Position numbers and translations under genes: made by a program. From NCBI RefSeq assembly GCF_022347685.1, contig NZ_JAKRGF010000002.1, forward strand, positions 124,001-188,000: 64,000 nucleotides of DNA, in the 5' to 3' direction. The notes beneath the pieces were generated by a model. The model was not told the origin of the DNA and made no database searches. It saw only the letters and a list, made by a program, of their open reading frames with translations. This DNA comes from Thalassobius sp. Cn5-15 (GTDB lineage: Bacteria; Pseudomonadota; Alphaproteobacteria; Rhodobacterales; Rhodobacteraceae). How positions within the stretch are numbered: position 1 is the stretch's first letter; every line of letters begins with the position of its first letter. This document shows positions 25,328 to 34,395 of this stretch, piece by piece.

Positions 25328-26017
25328 ATGAGCAGATATTCCTTCACCCTCGCCGGACAAAGTATGGAAGCCATGCCATCTGGGGCCCTCTTCTGGCCCG
25401 AGCAGAGCCTGCTCTGCGTGTCCGATCTGCACTTTGGCAAAAGCGAACGGATCGCCCGACTGGGCGGCGCGATGCTGCCCCCTTATGACACACGCGACAC
25501 GCTGACCCGGCTGGAAAAGGACCTGACCCGCACCAAAGCACGTTCGGTGATCTGTCTGGGCGACAGTTTCGATGATTCCATCGCCGCGCGTGGCATCAGT
25601 GAGCAAGAGTTCACATGGATCACCCGCCTACAGGCCGGCCGTCACTGGGTCTGGATCGAGGGCAATCATGATCCCGGTCCCTTGGCGATGGGCGGCACCC
25701 ATATGGCCGAACTGCCACTACCACCGGTTCAGTTCCGCCATATCGCCGTACCTGGCAGCGCGGCCGAGATTTCGGGGCACTACCATCCGAAGGCACAGCT
25801 CAAGACCAAAGCAGGCACCCTGAGCCGCCCCTGTTTCCTGATTGACAGTGATCGGGTGATCATGCCCGCCTATGGCAGCTACACGGGCGGGTTGATGTGC
25901 GATGATCCGGCGCTGGTAGGATTGATGCGACCAGAGGCGCTGGCGGTATTGACCGGCGATGTGGCGCAGCCAATACCGATGCCCGGGCGACGCAGCTCCA
26001 TACATGATGAGATCTGA
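25328..26017 (+). CDS. pdeM: Ligase-associated metallophosphoesterase/endonuclease, PdeM type
   Basis: 229 residues from the ATG at 25328. Calcineurin-type metal site motifs: DLHFGKSERIARLG (D-x-H), CLGDSFDDS (GDxxDD), EGNHDPG and SGHYHPK. It matches the family known as ligase-associated DNA damage response endonuclease PdeM. The partner helicase ends 74 bp upstream; the gap holds a loose 7-bp inverted repeat (GCAAGAG 25254-25260, CTCTTGC 25290-25296). The 3' end nearly meets the convergent LytTR gene. Confidence 0.9.
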   Translation: MSRYSFTLAGQSMEAMPSGALFWPEQSLLCVSDLHFGKSERIARLGGAMLPPYDTRDTLTRLEKDLTRTKARSVICLGDSFDDSIAARGISEQEFTWITRLQAGRHWVWIEGNHDPGPLAMGGTHMAELPLPPVQFRHIAVPGSAAEISGHYHPKAQLKTKAGTLSRPCFLIDSDRVIMPAYGSYTGGLMCDDPALVGLMRPEALAVLTGDVAQPIPMPGRRSSIHDEI

Positions 26018-26028
26018 GGCCGCGCCAA

Positions 26029-26889
26029 TCAAACAGAGGTGTTGAACCGAGCGAGGATGCCTTCGTCCTCCAACCGTGTGCGCGCACTGCGGCTGACAGG
26101 CACGCGACGGCCTGTTTCCAATATCAGGTACATCTTGCCTTCTTCACGCAGCACGCCAGTGATCGCCTCTTTGGCAACCCAATGAGACCGGTGGGTGATC
26201 ATGCCCGCAACCCCATCCATTTCCGCCACCGCATCGCTGAATCGCATGCGCAAAGAAATCAGCGCCCCTGCCAGTTCCACATCCACAAAGTGATCGCGTG
26301 CAGACAGATGCAGAATCATTCCTGTGGTACCAGCAGGCAGCCGTTCATAAAGACGCGCGGGCGCTTCTACAGCCACCTCTGATGCATTTTCTGACGTGGG
26401 CGCCTGCATGCCGAAGGCATCAAAAGCCACCGCTGGTCCCGACGCGGGCGCCGAGGCGACCAGCAATTCGGGATGCGCCGTGATCAAGCGCAGGGCAGAA
26501 AACAGGGACGCGACCATAAAGACAAGGCCGAGCACCTTCACGTAAGGCGCCGTCCCGCCTTGTAAGATCTCCAGCGGATAGAAGAGACTGAGCATATAGA
26601 CCACAGGGCTAAGCAGCACAGTAAAGCCAGCGACATGCAGCACCTCGCCCAGACTATCAGAGGCGTTGGGCAAATAGTGCTCACGCATGTCACGAATAAC
26701 CGTGCTAAGCACGACCGACGTCGCGCTAATCACCGCCCAGAAAAGGGTGCGCTGACACAGTACAAGGCTGGAATAGGTATCAAACGGCCCCATGATCACA
26801 CCCGCCACCACAGCCAGCATCCAGATGCTCAACACGCGCGGCGCGATCAAGCGCCGAACTGCACGTTTTACAGACTTCGATAGGGTCAA
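26029..26889 (-). CDS. Membrane-anchored LytTR DNA-binding protein
   Basis: 286 residues. About four hydrophobic helices (LIAPRVLSIWMLAVVAGVIM, TLFWAVISATSVVLS, VAGFTVLLSPVVYMLSLF, VLGLVFMVASLFSAL) precede a C-terminal LytTR domain: ILHLSARDHFVDVE, LISLRMRFSDAVAEM, GMITHRSHWVAKEAI and RRVPVSRSARTRLE. There is no receiver domain, so the sensor is presumably the membrane part, as in Rhodobacterales membrane LytTR regulators. The only available start is TTG at 26889, close to a stop upstream in frame, with a weak ribosome site. Target genes unknown. Confidence 0.85.
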   Translation of the reverse strand: MTLSKSVKRAVRRLIAPRVLSIWMLAVVAGVIMGPFDTYSSLVLCQRTLFWAVISATSVVLSTVIRDMREHYLPNASDSLGEVLHVAGFTVLLSPVVYMLSLFYPLEILQGGTAPYVKVLGLVFMVASLFSALRLITAHPELLVASAPASGPAVAFDAFGMQAPTSENASEVAVEAPARLYERLPAGTTGMILHLSARDHFVDVELAGALISLRMRFSDAVAEMDGVAGMITHRSHWVAKEAITGVLREEGKMYLILETGRRVPVSRSARTRLEDEGILARFNTSV

Positions 26890-27030
26890 AATCGCACCGT
26901 CTACTTATTTTCCATCACGCCCTCATAGGGAGAATTCCCAACAGGCGATCTGCTTCTAGGATATAGTACGTATGCACGCGCCATCCTGTTAGAGACTAGG
27001 GGGAAAAAGTCACATCAGGCACCAAAGCAG

Positions 27031-27057
27031 AAAAAATCGTGACACCCTCTGTCACGA
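27031..27057 (-). terminator. Perfect terminator, minus strand
   Basis: TCGTGACA (27037-27044) and TGTCACGA (27050-27057) form an 8-bp stem with a 5-base loop; on the minus strand it is followed by TTTTTT. It ends some leftward transcript other than, or in addition to, the folD one. Confidence 0.85.
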
Positions 27058-27109
27058 CGCTCCGAGGCGCAGCGATTGGTGATATTTGGTGGAAAAATGC
27101 GACCGTTTG

Positions 27110-27140
27110 GCCCGGTCAACATGTCGGTTCGCCCGGTCAA
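27110..27140. repeat. Two direct repeats GCCCGGTCAA 21 bp apart
   Basis: Copies at 27110-27119 and 27131-27140, read as TTGACCGGGC on the minus strand. The 21-bp period (two helical turns) is the spacing used by LytTR-domain proteins, and the nearest gene leftwards encodes one. The intervening terminator at 27031-27057 speaks against a simple operator. Confidence 0.4.
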
Positions 27141-27152
27141 TTCTGGGCAAAA

Positions 27153-27182
27153 CAGGGCGCCAGTTCAATCGCGGGCGCCCTG
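27153..27182 (-). terminator. Terminator after folD1
   Basis: CAGGGCGCC (27153-27161) and GGCGCCCTG (27174-27182) pair perfectly; the minus strand continues TTTTG. Lies 13 bp after the folD1 stop. Confidence 0.8.
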
Positions 27183-27195
27183 CCGAATCAGGGGT

Positions 27196-28086
27196 TTAGG
27201 CGGTCAGGCCTTCCGGCTCTGCCAGACCGTTGGCACGGCAGCAGGCGGTCACAGTGTTGGCCAAGAGGCAGGCGATGGTCATCGGACCGACACCACCGGG
27301 AACGGGGGTGATGGCACCGGCCACCTTGGACGCGCTTTCGAAATCGACGTCACCGACCAGTTTGTTTTTGCCGTCACGCTCGATCCGGTTGATGCCCACG
27401 TCAATCACGGTGGCGCCTTCCTTGATCCAGTCGCCGGGCACCATTTCGGGGCGGCCTACAGCGGCAACGACGATGTCGGCCTGTTTCACCACACCGGGCA
27501 GATCCTTGGTGCGCGAATGGGCGATGGTCACGGTGGCGCTGTCGTTCAGCAGAAGCTGCGCCATCGGTTTGCCAACGATGTTCGAACGACCAATCACAAC
27601 CGCGTTCATACCAGAGATGGAACCATGATAATCACGCAGCATCATCAGGCAACCCAGCGGGGTGCAGGGGACCATGGATTTCTGGCCGGTGCCGAGCAGA
27701 CCCACATTCGAGATGTGGAAGCCATCGACGTCTTTTTCCGGCGCGATGGAGTTGATGATCAGATCTTCGTTCAGGTGGCCGGGCAGCGGCAACTGCACCA
27801 GAATACCATGAACAGCAGGATCGTTATTCAGCTGGTCGATCACCGCCAGCAGATCTGCTTCAGACGTGTCGGCATCCATCTTATGCTCATAAGAGTTCAT
27901 GCCCGATTCAACGGTCTGTTTGCCCTTGGAGCGCACGTAAACCTGACTTGCGGGATCTTCGCCCACCAGCACCACCGCCAGACCGGGGGTGATGCCGTGC
28001 TCTTCCTTCAGACGGGTGACATGTCCCGCCACCTGTTCGCGCACTTTGGCCGCAAAGGCCTTGCCGTCAATCAATGTTGCAGTCAT
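27196..28086 (-). CDS. folD: Methylenetetrahydrofolate dehydrogenase/cyclohydrolase FolD (canonical copy)
   Basis: 296 residues. Complete FolD signature set: [14 protein letters not shown] with the cyclohydrolase lysine at residue 54, [17 protein letters not shown] (Asp121), [22 protein letters not shown], and [11 protein letters not shown]. It interconverts 5,10-methylene-, methenyl- and 10-formyl-tetrahydrofolate with NADP. It starts 14 bases after a second folD-like gene, and the formate-THF ligase gene lies further upstream, giving a full tetrahydrofolate one-carbon route. Confidence 0.96.
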
Positions 28087-28100
28087 CTGCCTACCCTCTT

Positions 28101-28982
28101 TTAAACGTCGGTCCGGGCGTAGCTGTCCCGGTAGTGATCTTTCTGCATCCGTGTTGCCAACACGGCGTTTTTCATCAGTGTCGCCACAGTGACCGGACCA
28201 ACGCCGCCCGGCACAGGGGTGATCCAGCCGGCCACTTCGGCGCAGCTGTCAAAGTCGGCGTCGCCCACGGTCTTTCCATCCACGCGGTTGATGCCAATGT
28301 CAATTACTGCCGCGCCGGGTTTGATCATGTCGCCCGTGACCAGACCGGGTTTGCCCACGGCCACGAACACTGCGTCCGCGGCGCGCGAGTGCATTGCAAC
28401 CGAGCGCGTCATGTGGTGGCATACGGTAACCGTCGCGCCCAGACCCATCATCAAGAAGGCGATGGGCTTACCAACGATTTCGCTGTGGCCGATCACGGTG
28501 ACGTTCAGACCTTCCATTTGCAAAGGCAACGTCTTCAAAATCTCAACCGCCGCGACGGCAGTACAGGGGCCAAGCGCCAGATCGTTATAAACGATGTTCC
28601 CGATCGAGGCGGGGTGCATACCCTCCACATCCTTCAGCGGGTGCACGGCTTTTTGCAGCGTTTTCACCGGAATATGGGCCGGCAGCGGACGCTGGATGAT
28701 AATACCGTTGACGCGCGGGTCGCCATTCAGGCCCTGCAGCACACCGGTCAGCTGTTCCAGCGAGATATCTTCGGGATAGTTGCGCGCCTCAAACTGCACA
28801 CCGGCGCTTTCGGCCGAACGTTGCTGGTTGCGCACATAAAGCTCAGAGGCCGCCATATCGCCGACGCTGATCGACACCAGACGCGGCTGCCAGCCCTGTT
28901 CGGCCAGTGCGTTGGCCTCTACGGCCACCTCGTCACGCATCTTTTGGGCGATGGCCTTGCCATCAATGGTTTGCGCTCGCAT
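28101..28982 (-). CDS. FolD paralogue with altered catalytic residues
   Basis: 293 residues, clearly FolD-fold ([32 protein letters not shown]), but key residues differ from the neighbouring FolD. The cyclohydrolase lysine in Y-x-x-x-K is Gln53 (YVRNQQR); the folate-site DVDG is DVEG (Glu120); the cofactor-site GRSNIVG is GHSEIVG (Arg to His). In human MTHFD1 the equivalent Lys56 is needed for cyclohydrolase, and a K56Q change keeps dehydrogenase activity. This protein may therefore be a dehydrogenase only, possibly with changed cofactor use. It lies between a terminator after fhs and folD1, 14 bp apart from the latter, so both are probably co-transcribed. Confidence 0.9.
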
Positions 28983-29062
28983 CGGGGTATTTCCTTCTTC
29001 GTTCAGGCGTTTCTGCCTTTATGCGGGCTTCGTCGCATGAGGCGCACATTCCGCCCCAAAAG

Positions 29063-29094
29063 GAACAGCCCAGAGCGTAGGCTCTGGGCTGTTC
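29063..29094 (-). terminator. Terminator after formate-THF ligase gene
   Basis: GAACAGCCCAGAG (29063-29075) and CTCTGGGCTGTTC (29082-29094) form a perfect 13-bp stem, loop CGTAGG; on the minus strand TTTTG follows. It implies a separate promoter for the two folD genes in 28983-29060. Confidence 0.85.
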
Positions 29095-29109
29095 GGGATC
29101 AGCGCCTGA

Positions 29110-30786
29110 TTAGAACAGGCCTTCGATCAGACCTTCATCGTTCAGGCGGATGCTTTCCGACGCAGGTTTGCGGGGCAGACCCGGCATCGTCATGATCTCA
29201 CCGCAGACAACCACGATGAAGCCAGCACCTGCGGACAGGCGTACTTCGCGTACCGGAACCGAGTGGCCGGTGGGCGCACCGCGCAGCGAGGGGTCGGTCG
29301 AGAAGGAGTACTGGGTTTTCGCCATGCAGACCGGCAGGTTGCCGTAGCCCGCGTCTTCCCACTCTTTCAGCTGGTTGCGGATTTTGTTGTCCGCCAGCAC
29401 TTCGTCAGCACGGTAGATACGCTTGGCGATGGTTTCGATCTTCTCGAACAGCGGCATGTCGTCGGGGTAGATCGGTGCGAAGTTGGCAGTGCCACCTTCA
29501 ACGATTTCCACAACTTTTTCTGCCAGCGGTGCGGAGCCTTCCGAACCCAGTTCCCAGTGACGCGACAGAACTGCCTCAACACCGTGCTCTGCACAGTAGT
29601 CTTTTACAGCCTGAACTTCGGCGTCGGTGTCGGTGACGAAGTGGTTGATGCCCACAACAACCGGCACCCCGAAGGATTTCACGTTCTCAATGTGGCGGCC
29701 AAGGTTGGCGCAGCCGTTCTGAACTGCTTCGACGTTTTCTGCACCCAGATCCGCCTTGGCAACGCCGCCGTTCATTTTCATTGCGCGCACGGTGGCAACC
29801 AGCACAACCGCGGACGGTGCGATGCCTGCCTTGCGGCACTTGATGTTCATGAACTTCTCTGCGCCGAGGTCCGCACCGAAGCCTGCTTCGGTCACAACGT
29901 AATCCGCAACTTTCAGCGCGGTTTTGGTTGCGATGACCGAGTTACAGCCGTGCGCGATGTTGGCGAACGGGCCGCCGTGGACGAAGGCAGGGTTGTTTTC
30001 CAGGGTCTGAACCAGGTTGGGCTGCATTGCATCTTTCAGCAGAACAGTCATTGCACCCTCTGCTTTGATGTCGCGGCAATAAACCGGGGTCTTGTCGCGG
30101 CGGTAGGCTACGATGATGTCGCCCAGACGCTTTTCCAGATCTTCCAGATCGTTGGCCAGACACAGGATCGCCATAACCTCAGAGGCAACAGTGATATCGA
30201 AACCGGTTTCACGGGGGAAGCCGTTCGATACGCCGCCCAAGCTGGCAGTGATCTGACGCAGGGCGCGGTCGTTCATGTCGACCACACGGCGCCATGCAAC
30301 GCGACGGATGTCAATCTCGCACTCATTGCCCCAGTAGATGTGGTTGTCGATCATCGCCGACAGCAGCGAGTGGGCCGAGGTGATCGCGTGGAAGTCACCA
30401 GTGAAGTGCAGGTTCATCTCTTCCATCGGCACAACCTGTGCCATGCCGCCGCCCGCTGCGCCGCCTTTCATGCCGAAGTTCGGGCCGAGAGACGCTTCGC
30501 GGATACAGATCATGGCGTTTTTGCCGATCTTGTTCAGGCCGTCGCCCAGACCCACGGTGGTGGTGGTCTTACCTTCGCCCGCCGGGGTCGGGTTGATCGC
30601 GGTCACCAGAATCAGCTTGCCGTCTTCGCGGTCCTGAACCGAGTTGATGAAGCTCTGGCTTACCTTGGCCTTGTCGTGGCCGTAAGGCAGCAGGTCCGCC
30701 GCGGGGATGCCCAGACGGTCACCGATTTCTTGAATCGGTTTCTTGTTGGCCTCTCGGGCGATCTCAATATCAGTCTTAAAGCTCAT
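29110..30786 (-). CDS. fhs: Formate--tetrahydrofolate ligase
   Basis: 558 residues from the ATG at 30784-30786 with GGGAGGG upstream (a longer frame to 30918 has no such support). P-loop [18 protein letters not shown]; typical segments [36 protein letters not shown] and [17 protein letters not shown]. It makes 10-formyl-THF from formate, THF and ATP. With the folD genes downstream it can link formate to serine, purine and methyl metabolism, and in Roseobacters often serves demethylation routes. Confidence 0.97.
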
Positions 30787-30968
30787 GGGTCGCCCTCCCG
30801 GCGTACTTGAGTGATCTTTCTTCTCACCCAAATAACGACGCGTCACGAGGGGGTGCATCGCGAAATCCGACATTTCCGGCACGGCTTGCGTCGCGCTAAC
30901 ATACGGGCCCTCCCGCAAGGTAAGCTAATGTAGCCTATAGGAAACACGACGCTTACCCTTGATCGAAT

Positions 30969-31571
30969 CTATCGACGCGTACGCACCTCATCATAGTGCG
31001 CCCATTCCGGCTGATCAGGAATAGACAATTGCAGAGAGTCGCCAAGTGCTATCTCCCCCTCCCTTTCCACCCATGCAGTGACGCCCCGTTTGGCCCAAGC
31101 CGCCGCGCGCAGGCCTCGGGCAGGGGATTTTGTCGCCGCCTCGATCACCGGAATGGGCAAATTGCAGGGACGATTTTCCATATCCACCACCAATGAGGCA
31201 CCTGATGGCGCCTGCAAGCGGCTGCTGGGCGGCAAGCGGCTGAAATCAGGGATGCCGCGCAACAGAACGGTGGTGCCGAGCCATGCGGGATCAATGTCAC
31301 CAATGCCCAGTTCTATCGCGATCGCTTCCAGATCCTCGGCAGCCATCAGACAGATTTGGCGGGTGTTGCGAATCGTAGTGCCACGAGCGTGCATCCCTGC
31401 CACCCGCCCGCAGGAGGGGCGCGTCACACCCGCATGCGAATCTGCGGCGACACCGCCCCAATCCAATGTCAGCGCCTCGCGCGGGCTGGACGCCAAAGAC
31501 TGAGCGCGGTCTTCTACAACCCCCAGCCATTCAATGGTGCCGTGAAAATCGGTTTGTTTTAGTGCCGGCAT
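30969..31571 (-). CDS. MOSC-domain protein
   Basis: 200 residues. The MOSC fold is suggested by the opening GTIEWLGVVEDR, the DSHAGVTRPSCGRV segment, NTRQICLMAAEDLEAIA, and ENRPCNLPIPVIE with the conserved cysteine that in MOSC proteins carries sulfur or contacts the molybdenum cofactor. The C-terminal AKRGVTAWVEREGEIALGDSLQL is also usual. Single-domain MOSC proteins are widespread with mostly unknown substrates. The 182 bp to fhs hold only promoter-like sequence for fhs. Confidence 0.85.
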   Translation of the reverse strand: MPALKQTDFHGTIEWLGVVEDRAQSLASSPREALTLDWGGVAADSHAGVTRPSCGRVAGMHARGTTIRNTRQICLMAAEDLEAIAIELGIGDIDPAWLGTTVLLRGIPDFSRLPPSSRLQAPSGASLVVDMENRPCNLPIPVIEAATKSPARGLRAAAWAKRGVTAWVEREGEIALGDSLQLSIPDQPEWAHYDEVRTRR

Positions 31572-31625
31572 GCCTGTCCCGCTCTCCCGGTTGCTTGTTA
31601 CGGGCGTCCGGTCTGGCCGGACAGG

Positions 31626-32309
31626 TCAGACAATATGGCGACGGGCGTAGAACACAACTGCCGAAAGTGTCGCAAAGGCAAAGCCAAACTCCAGGGTCTC
31701 TTCCAGCACCATAGAGGCCTGATGTGTCCAATCCGATATTTCGATACCATAGGGGACCAGATTGCGCTTCAAACCGTCCAGCTGGCTGCCGAAGAAACCC
31801 GAGACCAGCCCAAGAAAAGCAACCCGCGCCCAAGGTTCACCGGCGCGCAACGCGCGCAAGGCAGGTTTGCTGCCCGCCCAAATGAGGTGGATCGCGGTGA
31901 GCAGGATGACCAGCATCAGCGCTGCAGACACCCCTTTTTGCCACAGCGGAACCGGCGCCGAAAAGATCCCGATATGCAGCACACCAGGTTCAAACCACCA
32001 ATTGTGAAAATCCAGTTCGCGCAGCGCCAGAAAGCCGGTGAACAGCGGCACAGAGATAAAGCGTTTGCCCCCCAGCACCGCAATATAGCCGCTCAGCAGC
32101 GTCGCCAGCGCCAAACTGATAAAGGCCGCCTCTTCAAAGGCGCCGATTTCTTTGGTGACGGTAACCTTCCAGCCTGCGGCATTGACGCTGGACATCAACA
32201 GCAGCAGCAGGACAACAAAATAGGTCTTAAGCGACCCGGGTTGTCTGGCGGTGTTTAACAATGCGGATAGCGCGCCTTCGGATGCGGCGGCTGAAGATCT
32301 CTCGGCCAT
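31626..32309 (-). CDS. Integral membrane protein, unknown
   Basis: 227 residues with five or six hydrophobic helices (TYFVVLLLLLMSSVNAAGW; AAFISLALATLLSGYIAVLGG; GVSAALMLVILLTAIHLIW; VAFLGLVSGFFGSQLDGL; LEFGFAFATLSAVVFYA). Polar motifs ALRELDFHNWWF and MVLEETLEFG place acidic and histidine residues near the membrane and could be a metal or proton site. No family is recognised. It lies between ftsH and the MOSC gene in the same direction; weak ribosome site. Confidence 0.75.
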   Translation of the reverse strand: MAERSSAAASEGALSALLNTARQPGSLKTYFVVLLLLLMSSVNAAGWKVTVTKEIGAFEEAAFISLALATLLSGYIAVLGGKRFISVPLFTGFLALRELDFHNWWFEPGVLHIGIFSAPVPLWQKGVSAALMLVILLTAIHLIWAGSKPALRALRAGEPWARVAFLGLVSGFFGSQLDGLKRNLVPYGIEISDWTHQASMVLEETLEFGFAFATLSAVVFYARRHIV

Positions 32310-32422
32310 TTGGGGATCCAGCGTGCGGTTTGATGAAATCTAGATAAAGTCTCGATCATCGACCGCAAGGAATGACACAAATTTGTTACAGTTTGGATAC
32401 CGTACGGAACGTTGCGTCATGA

Positions 32423-32456
32423 AAAGCCCCGCCACGGTGACACCGGACGGGGCTTT
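32423..32456 (-). terminator. Terminator after ftsH
   Basis: AAAGCCCCG (32423-32431) pairs with CGGGGCTTT (32448-32456) and the minus strand continues TTTTC, 23 bp after the ftsH stop. Confidence 0.8.
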
Positions 32457-32478
32457 GATCTTTCGGGGAGGCTGGTGT

Positions 32479-34395
32479 TTAGCTCAGCTCTGGCTCCATG
32501 CCACCGTCACCACTGGGCTTCGCCTTGGGTTTGGTTTTCGGGATGGCAGCCACGGAGGGGGCGTTGCCCGCGCCGGAATTGTCATCCTCATCCTCACTTG
32601 CATAAGGAGAATCGCCACGCATCACGCGCTTGATTTCTTCGCCGGTCAGGGTTTCGTATTCCAGCAGGCCCTGCGCCAGACGCTCGAACTCTTCTTCGTG
32701 TTCGACAACCAGTTTTTGCGCGTGCTCATAGGCCTCTTGGATAAAGCGCTTCACCTCATCCTCAATCATCTCTTTCGTATTCGCAGAGACGGAGAAGCCA
32801 CCGGTGTTGCCAGAGTAGCCTTCGTGCGCTTCGGCATAATCGATGTTGCCCACCTTGTCCGACATACCCCAACGCAGCACCATCGCACGGGCCAGCTGGC
32901 TGGCCTGCTGGATGTCTCCGGCAGGACCGTTCGACACGTGATCAGCACCGTATTTATGGATCTCCGCCGCCTTGCCAGCCATGGTCATGGCCAGTTTCTG
33001 GTGACATTCATCCTTGTGCCAGTTCAGGCGGTCCATTTCAGGCAAGGACATCACCATACCCAGCGCACCACCGCGCGGGATGATCGTCGCCTTATAGACC
33101 GGATCACACTTCGGCAGTTTCAGACCAACCAGCGCATGCCCTGCCTCATGATAGGCAGTCATCTCTTTCTGTTCGGCGGTCATGACCATGCTGCGGCGTT
33201 CAGCGCCCATCATGATCTTGTCCTTGGCTTGCTCGAAATCTTCCATGGTGACCGCACGGCGACCCACGCGGGCAGCCATCAGCGCCGCCTCATTCACCAG
33301 GTTCATCAGATCCGCACCAGAGAAGCCGGGGGTGCCGCGGGCGATGATGCGCAGATCCACATCGGGACCCAGCGGTGTCTTGCGCGCATGCACGGCCAGA
33401 ATCTTCTCACGGCCTTTGATGTCGGGGTTGCCGACGGTGATCTGACGGTCAAAACGCCCCGGACGCAGCAGGGCTGGGTCCAAAACATCCTTACGGTTGG
33501 TGGCCGCGATGATGATGACACCTTCGTTGGCTTCGAAACCGTCCATCTCAACCAGCAGCTGGTTCAGCGTCTGTTCGCGTTCGTCGTTACCGCCGCCATA
33601 CCCGGCGCCACGATGGCGACCCACGGCGTCGATTTCATCGATGAACACGATGCAGGGCGCGTTTTTCTTCGCCTGCTCGAACATGTCACGCACACGAGAT
33701 GCACCAACACCCACGAACATTTCAACAAAGTCGGAACCAGAGATGGTGAAGAACGGCACACCCGCCTCCCCCGCAATCGCACGGGCCAGCAGGGTCTTAC
33801 CAGTACCCGGAGGCCCCTCAAGCAGGGCGCCTTTGGGGATCTTGCCGCCAAGGCGGGAGAATTTCTGCGGGTTCCGCAGGAATTCAACGATCTCTTCCAG
33901 CTCTTCCTTGGCCTCATCAATGCCGGCCACGTCGTCAAAGGTCACGCGACCGTTCTTTTCGGTCAGCAGCTTGGCCTTGGATTTACCAAAGCCCATAGCG
34001 CCGCCTTTGCCGCCACCCTGCATACGGTTCATGAAGTAGATCCACACACCAATCAGCAAAAGGAACGGCAAGAGGCTGAGGATGAAGGTCTGGAACCCAG
34101 ACTGTTGCTGGCTTTCTGCAGTGACGGGAATGTTCTCCGCAATCAGCATTTTGGTGACTTCGGCGTCATCCGGCTTGATCGTCACATAGTCACGATTGTC
34201 GGTGCCGCGGAAGCGCACGGCCTCACCATCCAGCGTGACGGAACTGACTTTGTCTTCGTCAACCGCCTTAACAAATTCGGAATAGGGGATGGAGTTGCTT
34301 TGCAGGCTGCCGCCAGAGCCACTGAACATATTGAACAGGGCCAGAACCAGCAGAAACAGGACCACCCAGAAAGCGATGTTTTTCGCGTTGCCCAA
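32479..34395 (-). CDS. ftsH: ATP-dependent zinc metalloprotease FtsH
   Basis: 638 residues. Two membrane helices (about 7-24 and 102-122) bracket a periplasmic domain; AAA+ domain with Walker [10 protein letters not shown] (193-201), pore motif [12 protein letters not shown], Walker [29 protein letters not shown]; peptidase M41 zinc site HEAGH. It degrades membrane and some soluble proteins. Normal length and complete. Last gene of the long leftward block, ended by the hairpin at 32423-32456. Confidence 0.98.

Follow-up and report, generated by a model that had tools for sequence, protein, structure and literature searches.

Yeast MTD1 is a monofunctional NAD-dependent methylene-THF dehydrogenase, and in human MTHFD1 the substitution K56Q reportedly removes the cyclohydrolase activity and keeps the dehydrogenase. 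In an excerpt of PMC11064299, this nature of MTD1 is given by the title of a reference, yet a sentence in the body of the paper describes the function of MTD1 as "only cyclohydrolase". The key substrate residues of the human and Leishmania enzymes are described, in passages of PMC3368264, as Tyr52, Lys56, Gln100, Leu101, Asp125, Gly273 and Gly276, with the 2′-phosphate of NADP held by an Arg/Ser/His combination equivalent to Arg173, Ser197 and His196. The same passages treat the active-site lysine of FolD/MTHFD enzymes as a key catalytic residue, whereas its role in cyclohydrolysis is disputed in parts of two other papers (PMC9173628, PMC6443876): a simulation study of MTHFD2 leaves the catalytic role of the lysine unsettled (PMC9173628), and the silkworm MTHFD mutant K53A is reported to have both activities, with cyclohydrolase retained (kcat/Km 0.097 vs. 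0.13), the mutant D120A having no measurable dehydrogenase when MTHF was the substrate varied (PMC6443876). Papers on the pathways of SAR11 and Rhodobacteraceae state, in the sections cited here, that demethylases produce methylene-THF; the use of THF by Tdm itself is described in parts of the literature as disputed. A Ruegeria pomeroyi strain with both fhs copies deleted did more poorly on choline and did not grow on glycine betaine as a carbon source (excerpt of PMC4744692), so the fhs branch matters.

In the window, which is the whole stretch of 64,000 nucleotides of Thalassobius sp. Cn5-15 DNA that was analysed, an intact open reading frame at 28101..28982 on the minus strand encodes a FolD paralogue of 293 aa that lacks the catalytic lysine, hereafter FolD2. 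Two domains cover its full length, PF00763 (THF_DHG_CYH, residues 5-119, 113.5 bits) and PF02882 (THF_DHG_CYH_C, residues 122-279, 188.6 bits). The canonical folD (27196..28086, minus strand, 296 aa), whose product has both Lys and Asp in the alignment and reaches 505.4 bits with NF010785 against a cut-off of 396, lies 14 bp downstream, and fhs, coding for formate–tetrahydrofolate ligase (29110..30786, minus strand; PF01268, 900 bits), ends 127 bp upstream; the fhs start at 30786 was picked by homology, the open reading frame itself reaching 30918. The window's assembly (G000, 3.5 Mb) has a single fhs match, and folD2 and folD alone account for its PF02882 matches. FolD2 and the neighbouring FolD share 120 of 291 aligned residues (41%), and Thalassovita mediterranea (L035), to which the window's assembly is close, has a FolD2 99% identical to that of the window.

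The best NCBIfam score of FolD2 was 297.4 bits against a cut-off of 421; the cut-off was reached by none of the 25 models listed (of 30 matched), and three other FolD2 proteins likewise fell under the NCBIfam FolD cut-offs listed. When the predicted structure (AlphaFold, pLDDT 81.6, with values <50 at residues 115-129 and 132-136, i.e., around Glu120) was used as input in Foldseek, all 50 matches listed were FolD/MTHFD proteins, the best with E ~1e-26 and TM ~0.8, which points to a FolD fold. No Rfam match that would indicate a regulatory RNA was found at the operon (region 26000-32500), and promoter and terminator scans gave results near chance. Upstream of fhs, positions 30969-31571 encode a small MOSC-domain protein (PF03473), and beyond folD, at 26029-26889, lies a gene whose product has a LytTR DNA-binding domain (PF04397).

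The active sites were compared in an alignment of 117 distinct FolD2 and 145 other distinct FolD proteins from the fetched loci, obtained by removing duplicates and proteins of <230 aa (343 to 262 sequences) and taking as FolD2 those with an identity to the window protein of 52% or more across >180 residues. By the separation criterion used, 40 columns set FolD2 apart. Gln53 (codon 28824..28826; this and the following codons are all on the minus strand) replaces the lysine of the YxxxK motif in 117/117 FolD2 proteins, and Lys is found in 145/145 other FolDs, among them those encoded in the same operons; given these counts the change is not neutral drift. Arg98 (28689..28691), at the position of human Leu101, gives IIQRP instead of LVQLP and is present in 117/117, the 145 others having Leu (137), Phe (7) or Met (1). 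Glu120 (28623..28625) takes the position of human Asp125, the pterin-binding Asp, so that DVEG stands for DVDG (Glu in 117/117, Asp in 145/145 others). At the NADP 2′-phosphate site, His166 (28485..28487) corresponds to human Arg173 and His190 (28413..28415) to human Ser197; both histidines occur in 117/117, with Arg in 140/145 and Ser in 143/145 of the other FolDs, respectively.

Three of the differences from the FolD encoded 14 bp away, Gln53, DVEG and GHSEIVG where the neighbour has GRSNIVG, had been pointed out in the earlier note; the alignment confirmed them, with Gln53, Glu120 and His166 invariant in all 117 relatives. Beyond this Gln/Glu/His set, three more changes were seen at or beside binding positions, namely Arg98 for Leu, His190 for Ser and Met191 for Arg/Lys, Met191 being present in 111/117 FolD2 proteins and Arg/Lys in 145/145 others; His189 is found in 116/117. 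Gln53, Arg98, Glu120, His166 and His190 were also present in 16/16 loci fetched later as a fresh test, so that the set does not stem from chance. The catalytic frame is kept, with Tyr49, Gln97 and Gly121 each in 117/117 and the Rossmann motif and PGGVG loop conserved. The predicted pterin/bridge-carbon site and 2′-phosphate site are altered together while the remaining catalytic frame is retained, and we argue that FolD2 is not a dead enzyme because Tyr49, Gln97, Gly121 and PGGVG are kept along with an invariant active-site set.

FolD2 was found in 23 of the 387 alphaproteobacterial genomes of the class sample (24 copies), where the full-length matches listed were at least 56% identical for FolD2 and at most 48% for other FolDs, with nothing between; two short C-terminal fragments in one genome (G018), 56-57% identical, were left out of the FolD2 counts. 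In the phylum sample 15/397 genomes carry it, all alphaproteobacterial, the other matches being at most 48% identical, and in the window's own family it is present in 34/296 genomes (22 at 78-100%, 1 at 68% and 11 at 57-63% identity). The clade extends across many alphaproteobacterial families and its presence is patchy: FolD2 occurs in 3/9 genomes of the window's genus (one of the nine, G005, has a completeness of just 83%), and in one FolD2-negative genome (G254) folD and fhs are direct neighbours with a gap of 85 bp. Two conserved peptides were used to scan contigs; of the 579 stretches returned, 556 were confirmed as relatives, and the best 80, at least 83% identical, were kept. Most of these are titled Rhodobacterales, and a few are bins whose titles go no further than Alphaproteobacteria or Proteobacteria. 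One own-family genome carries two folD2 copies of equal score (G978:C1:786214-787101 and 1074051-1074938), the first of which (L261) stands in the order fhs-folD2-folD, followed by tdm.

In an IQ-TREE phylogeny of 84 rows, all 42 FolD2 rows fell on one side of one branch (support 100/99), and a separate 100/100 branch united 35 alphaproteobacterial FolDs with no FolD2 among them; the tree has long branches, such as that of a FolD-like protein in genome G051, flagged by the program as possibly misplaced. By this phylogeny FolD2 is an ancient paralogue standing outside the alphaproteobacterial FolDs. A local tandem duplication of folD, which the word "tandem" in the earlier note might bring to mind, is ruled out by the position of the clade. 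The Gln/Glu/His set, which the earlier note wondered whether a whole clade would share, is conserved throughout this one (117/117 distinct relatives), and the opposite outcome that it had envisaged, a set confined to a single decaying genome, is at odds with the size of the clade and with purifying selection, the median omega being 0.098 for FolD2 and 0.113 for the neighbouring FolD, with dS near saturation (13/150 FolD2 and 5/150 FolD pairs with undefined dS were dropped). A decaying copy was ruled out by this FolD-like omega and by the lack of an internal stop in any FolD2 match; a phage origin was also ruled out, 53/53 matching phage records being <60% identical and the five listed at most 43%. 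FolD2 is a genuine FolD subfamily that neither the models nor the papers searched in one open-access library set apart, and no paper describing this lysine-less clade was found there.

Neighbouring genes were counted by tblastn with 13 query proteins, and family models were used for neighbours too. In 80/80 of the best contig loci (of 556 relatives) folD2 is preceded on the same strand by fhs, and folD lies within 3 kb of folD2 in 77/80, with a median gap of 21 bp; in the other three (L050, L063, L100) the contig stops 55-71 bp past folD2. An ORF of ~100 aa resembling chorismate mutase type II (L043:9642-9989; PF01817, 75.5 bits) was seen by tblastn in 42/80 of these loci, between fhs and folD2 in the gap ORFs listed, and had no tblastn match within the window. 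Outside this set, 33 and then 16 further loci were fetched (49, or 48 distinct ones, L248 and L091 being one contig). Half of them (24/48) have fhs, folD, tdm, sox (sarcosine oxidase), formate dehydrogenase or glxBCD (N-methylglutamate synthase) genes nearby, tdm, for TMAO demethylase, being found in 8/48, and 17/48 have none of the 13 query genes. The first 33 comprise 12 loci with C1 genes (L248 repeating L091), 6 with glycolate oxidase, 1 with a BCCT gene and 14 with none; among the 16 own-family loci fetched afterwards, 13 have C1 genes (in L265 just folD) and the remaining 3 (L252, L255, L260) lack them.

On a Paracoccus aminovorans plasmid folD2 adjoins a BCCT (betaine/choline-type) transporter gene, with choX/betC ~8-10 kb off, and a Ponticoccus alexandrii plasmid has the order fdh-fhs-folD-folD2-tdm with serine-cycle-like genes some kb further. 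Near folD2 in single genomes are soxB-D-A-G (G093), a formate dehydrogenase alpha gene (G142 and G230), GATase, GXGXG and Glu_synthase genes with a type III glutamine synthetase gene (G325), and tdm, glnT and glxDCB (G882). The glycolate oxidase genes glcD/E/F lie near folD2 in L243, L244, L245, L246 and L249 (genus g316) and in L198 (G423), that is in two families, hinting at a link to glyoxylate/glycine metabolism. Furthermore, an fhs match above cut-off was present in 23/23 FolD2-positive genomes vs. 184/387 in the class sample (Fisher p 1.7e-8, kinship ignored). The link to methylene-THF from demethylation reactions suggested in the earlier note is supported in several lineages by tdm, soxBDAG, glxBCD-glnT, formate dehydrogenase and fhs neighbours, with many loci lacking them.

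Another FolD was present in 35/35 FolD2-positive genomes checked and was canonical in 34, in one of which (G010) it appears as fragments at contig ends. The exception, G051, has no canonical FolD and carries instead a divergent FolD-like gene with an adjoining Fch-type gene (L175:4309-5915); the FolD-like protein is 29% identical to FolD2 and has ELP where QLP is usual, and the Fch-type gene scores 165.6 bits with PF04961 and 123 bits with NCBIfam FchA, under the cut-off of 275. Such an Fch-type gene (FTCD_C, PF04961) was found in 1/25 FolD2-positive genomes, G051 itself. A genome with FolD2 as its sole FolD, sought as the decisive case, occurred in 0/35 FolD2-positive genomes, G051 being the nearest. 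Since some FolD match is found in 360/387 alphaproteobacteria, the co-occurrence of FolD2 with FolD is weak evidence.

Because Gln53 is invariant, as in the human K56Q substitution, and FolD2 occurs as the only FolD in none of the 35 genomes checked, FolD2 has probably lost cyclohydrolase. The absence of the lysine does not by itself imply this loss, since the silkworm Lys-to-Ala mutant kept the activity, and at the silkworm D120 position FolD2 has Glu, not Ala. As for the cofactor, the balance tips towards NAD+, because the equivalents of Arg173 and Ser197, two of the three 2′-phosphate-binding residues, and the next basic residue are all replaced (Arg to His, Ser to His and Arg/Lys to Met); the new histidines could still bind phosphate, and His166 alone does not decide the cofactor because the FolDs of Escherichia coli and Pseudomonas aeruginosa also lack the Arg at this position.

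From family, residues, clade, selection and gene context we infer activity, cofactor and direction, and we lean towards FolD2 being a methylene-THF dehydrogenase without, or nearly without, cyclohydrolase, perhaps NAD-linked, that would oxidise methyl groups from demethylation; its placement in the oxidation of methyl groups, suggested by gene context, is the part that we consider likely. Demethylating enzymes of the TMAO, dimethylamine, N-methylglutamate and sarcosine routes, together with glycine cleavage, would supply 5,10-methylene-THF, FolD2 would use NAD(P)+ to convert this into methenyl-THF, and hydrolysis to formyl-THF would be left to the canonical FolD (in one genome to the Fch-type enzyme); Fhs would then yield formate and ATP, and formate dehydrogenase CO2 and NADH. 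If the altered 2′-phosphate pocket meant use of NAD+ or of both cofactors, FolD2 could feed respiration and not the NADPH pool. The "one-way" enzyme proposed in the earlier note is not supported, the FolD reaction being described as reversible in an excerpt of PMC11064299. FolD2 could also work reductively, for assimilation, above all on the Ponticoccus plasmid, where serine-cycle-like genes are present. We regard as doubtful the stronger version, a rebuilt, cyclohydrolase-free, NAD+-linked dehydrogenase fed by GcvT-domain demethylases, through which methyl groups from methylated amines and betaines would be committed to respiration, with two parallel methylene-THF oxidations on different redox carriers and with the "bifunctional" labels being wrong.

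FolD2 might still be bifunctional, a pocket of Arg98, Glu120 and Gln53 standing in for the lysine and the two copies differing only in cofactor, kinetics or regulation. The invariant new Arg98 next to Gln97 in the pocket would suit this, as would the two activities of silkworm K53A (excerpt of PMC6443876) and the label "bifunctional" in two plasmid records and in the names of the closest NCBIfam models; we judge it unlikely in view of the strict division between Gln and Lys, kept even within operons, and of the 0/35 genomes relying on FolD2 alone. The adjacency and close spacing of the two genes in Rhodobacterales, with their 21 bp median gap, would fit an inactive or regulatory subunit forming a heterodimer with FolD, as with the inactive FolD portion of MTHFD1L. 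Canonical FolDs are dimers, which would also suit a mixed one. Yet folD stands beside folD2 in only 6 of the first 33 further loci, and a subunit of this kind sits poorly with the conserved Tyr49, Gln97, Gly121, Rossmann motif and PGGVG loop and with an omega like that of FolD, so that we consider it the least likely of the readings.

FolD2 might instead use another C1 adduct or pterin, or be handed methylene-THF by a demethylase without release, the pterin site being remodelled by Glu120 and Arg98. In favour of this, Glu replaces the pterin-binding Asp and Arg the key neighbour Leu101 in all members, and the genes for the GcvT-domain demethylases Tdm and SoxA are recurrently close; we consider it very unlikely, as no independent sign of another carrier was seen and the H4MPT route is reported to be absent from Roseobacters in a passage of PMC4744692. 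A natural family that always has Gln, along with Arg for Leu101 and Glu for Asp125, offers a ready-made test of the role of the lysine. If FolD2 is indeed a dehydrogenase only, and NAD-linked, a separate step would have to be added to the annotation and metabolic models of how marine Rhodobacterales break down methylated amines, choline and TMAO, and folD2 would be a marker gene for C1 oxidation.

Among known systems, yeast MTD1 (1EDZ), monofunctional and NAD-dependent, is the proposed likeness, as a dehydrogenase without cyclohydrolase on a FolD fold; in sequence it is distant from FolD2, being the weakest of 27 PDB matches with 52 bits over 177 residues, vs. 237 bits for the top-scoring bacterial FolD. 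In Methylobacterium, MtdA and Fch share the two reactions between two proteins (excerpt of PMC4543880), whereas here the dehydrogenase would be a FolD paralogue and its partner is usually FolD, an Fch-type gene being found only in G051 among 25 genomes. The fhs-1/folD/tdm region of R. pomeroyi would serve the same pathway, and a supplementary figure legend of PMC4744692 names folD, tmm, tdm, fhs and ftsH; the parts of that paper cited here do not distinguish a lysine-less copy. With the FolD/MTHFD enzymes (E. coli FolD 1B0A, the human MTHFD1 domain and MTHFD2), FolD2 shares both Pfam domains over its full length, the same fold, and the Tyr, the Gln100 equivalent, the Gly and PGGVG; it differs from them in scoring under the NCBIfam cut-offs listed and in the clade-wide replacement of Lys56 by Gln, Leu101 by Arg, Asp125 by Glu, Arg173 by His and Ser197 by His.
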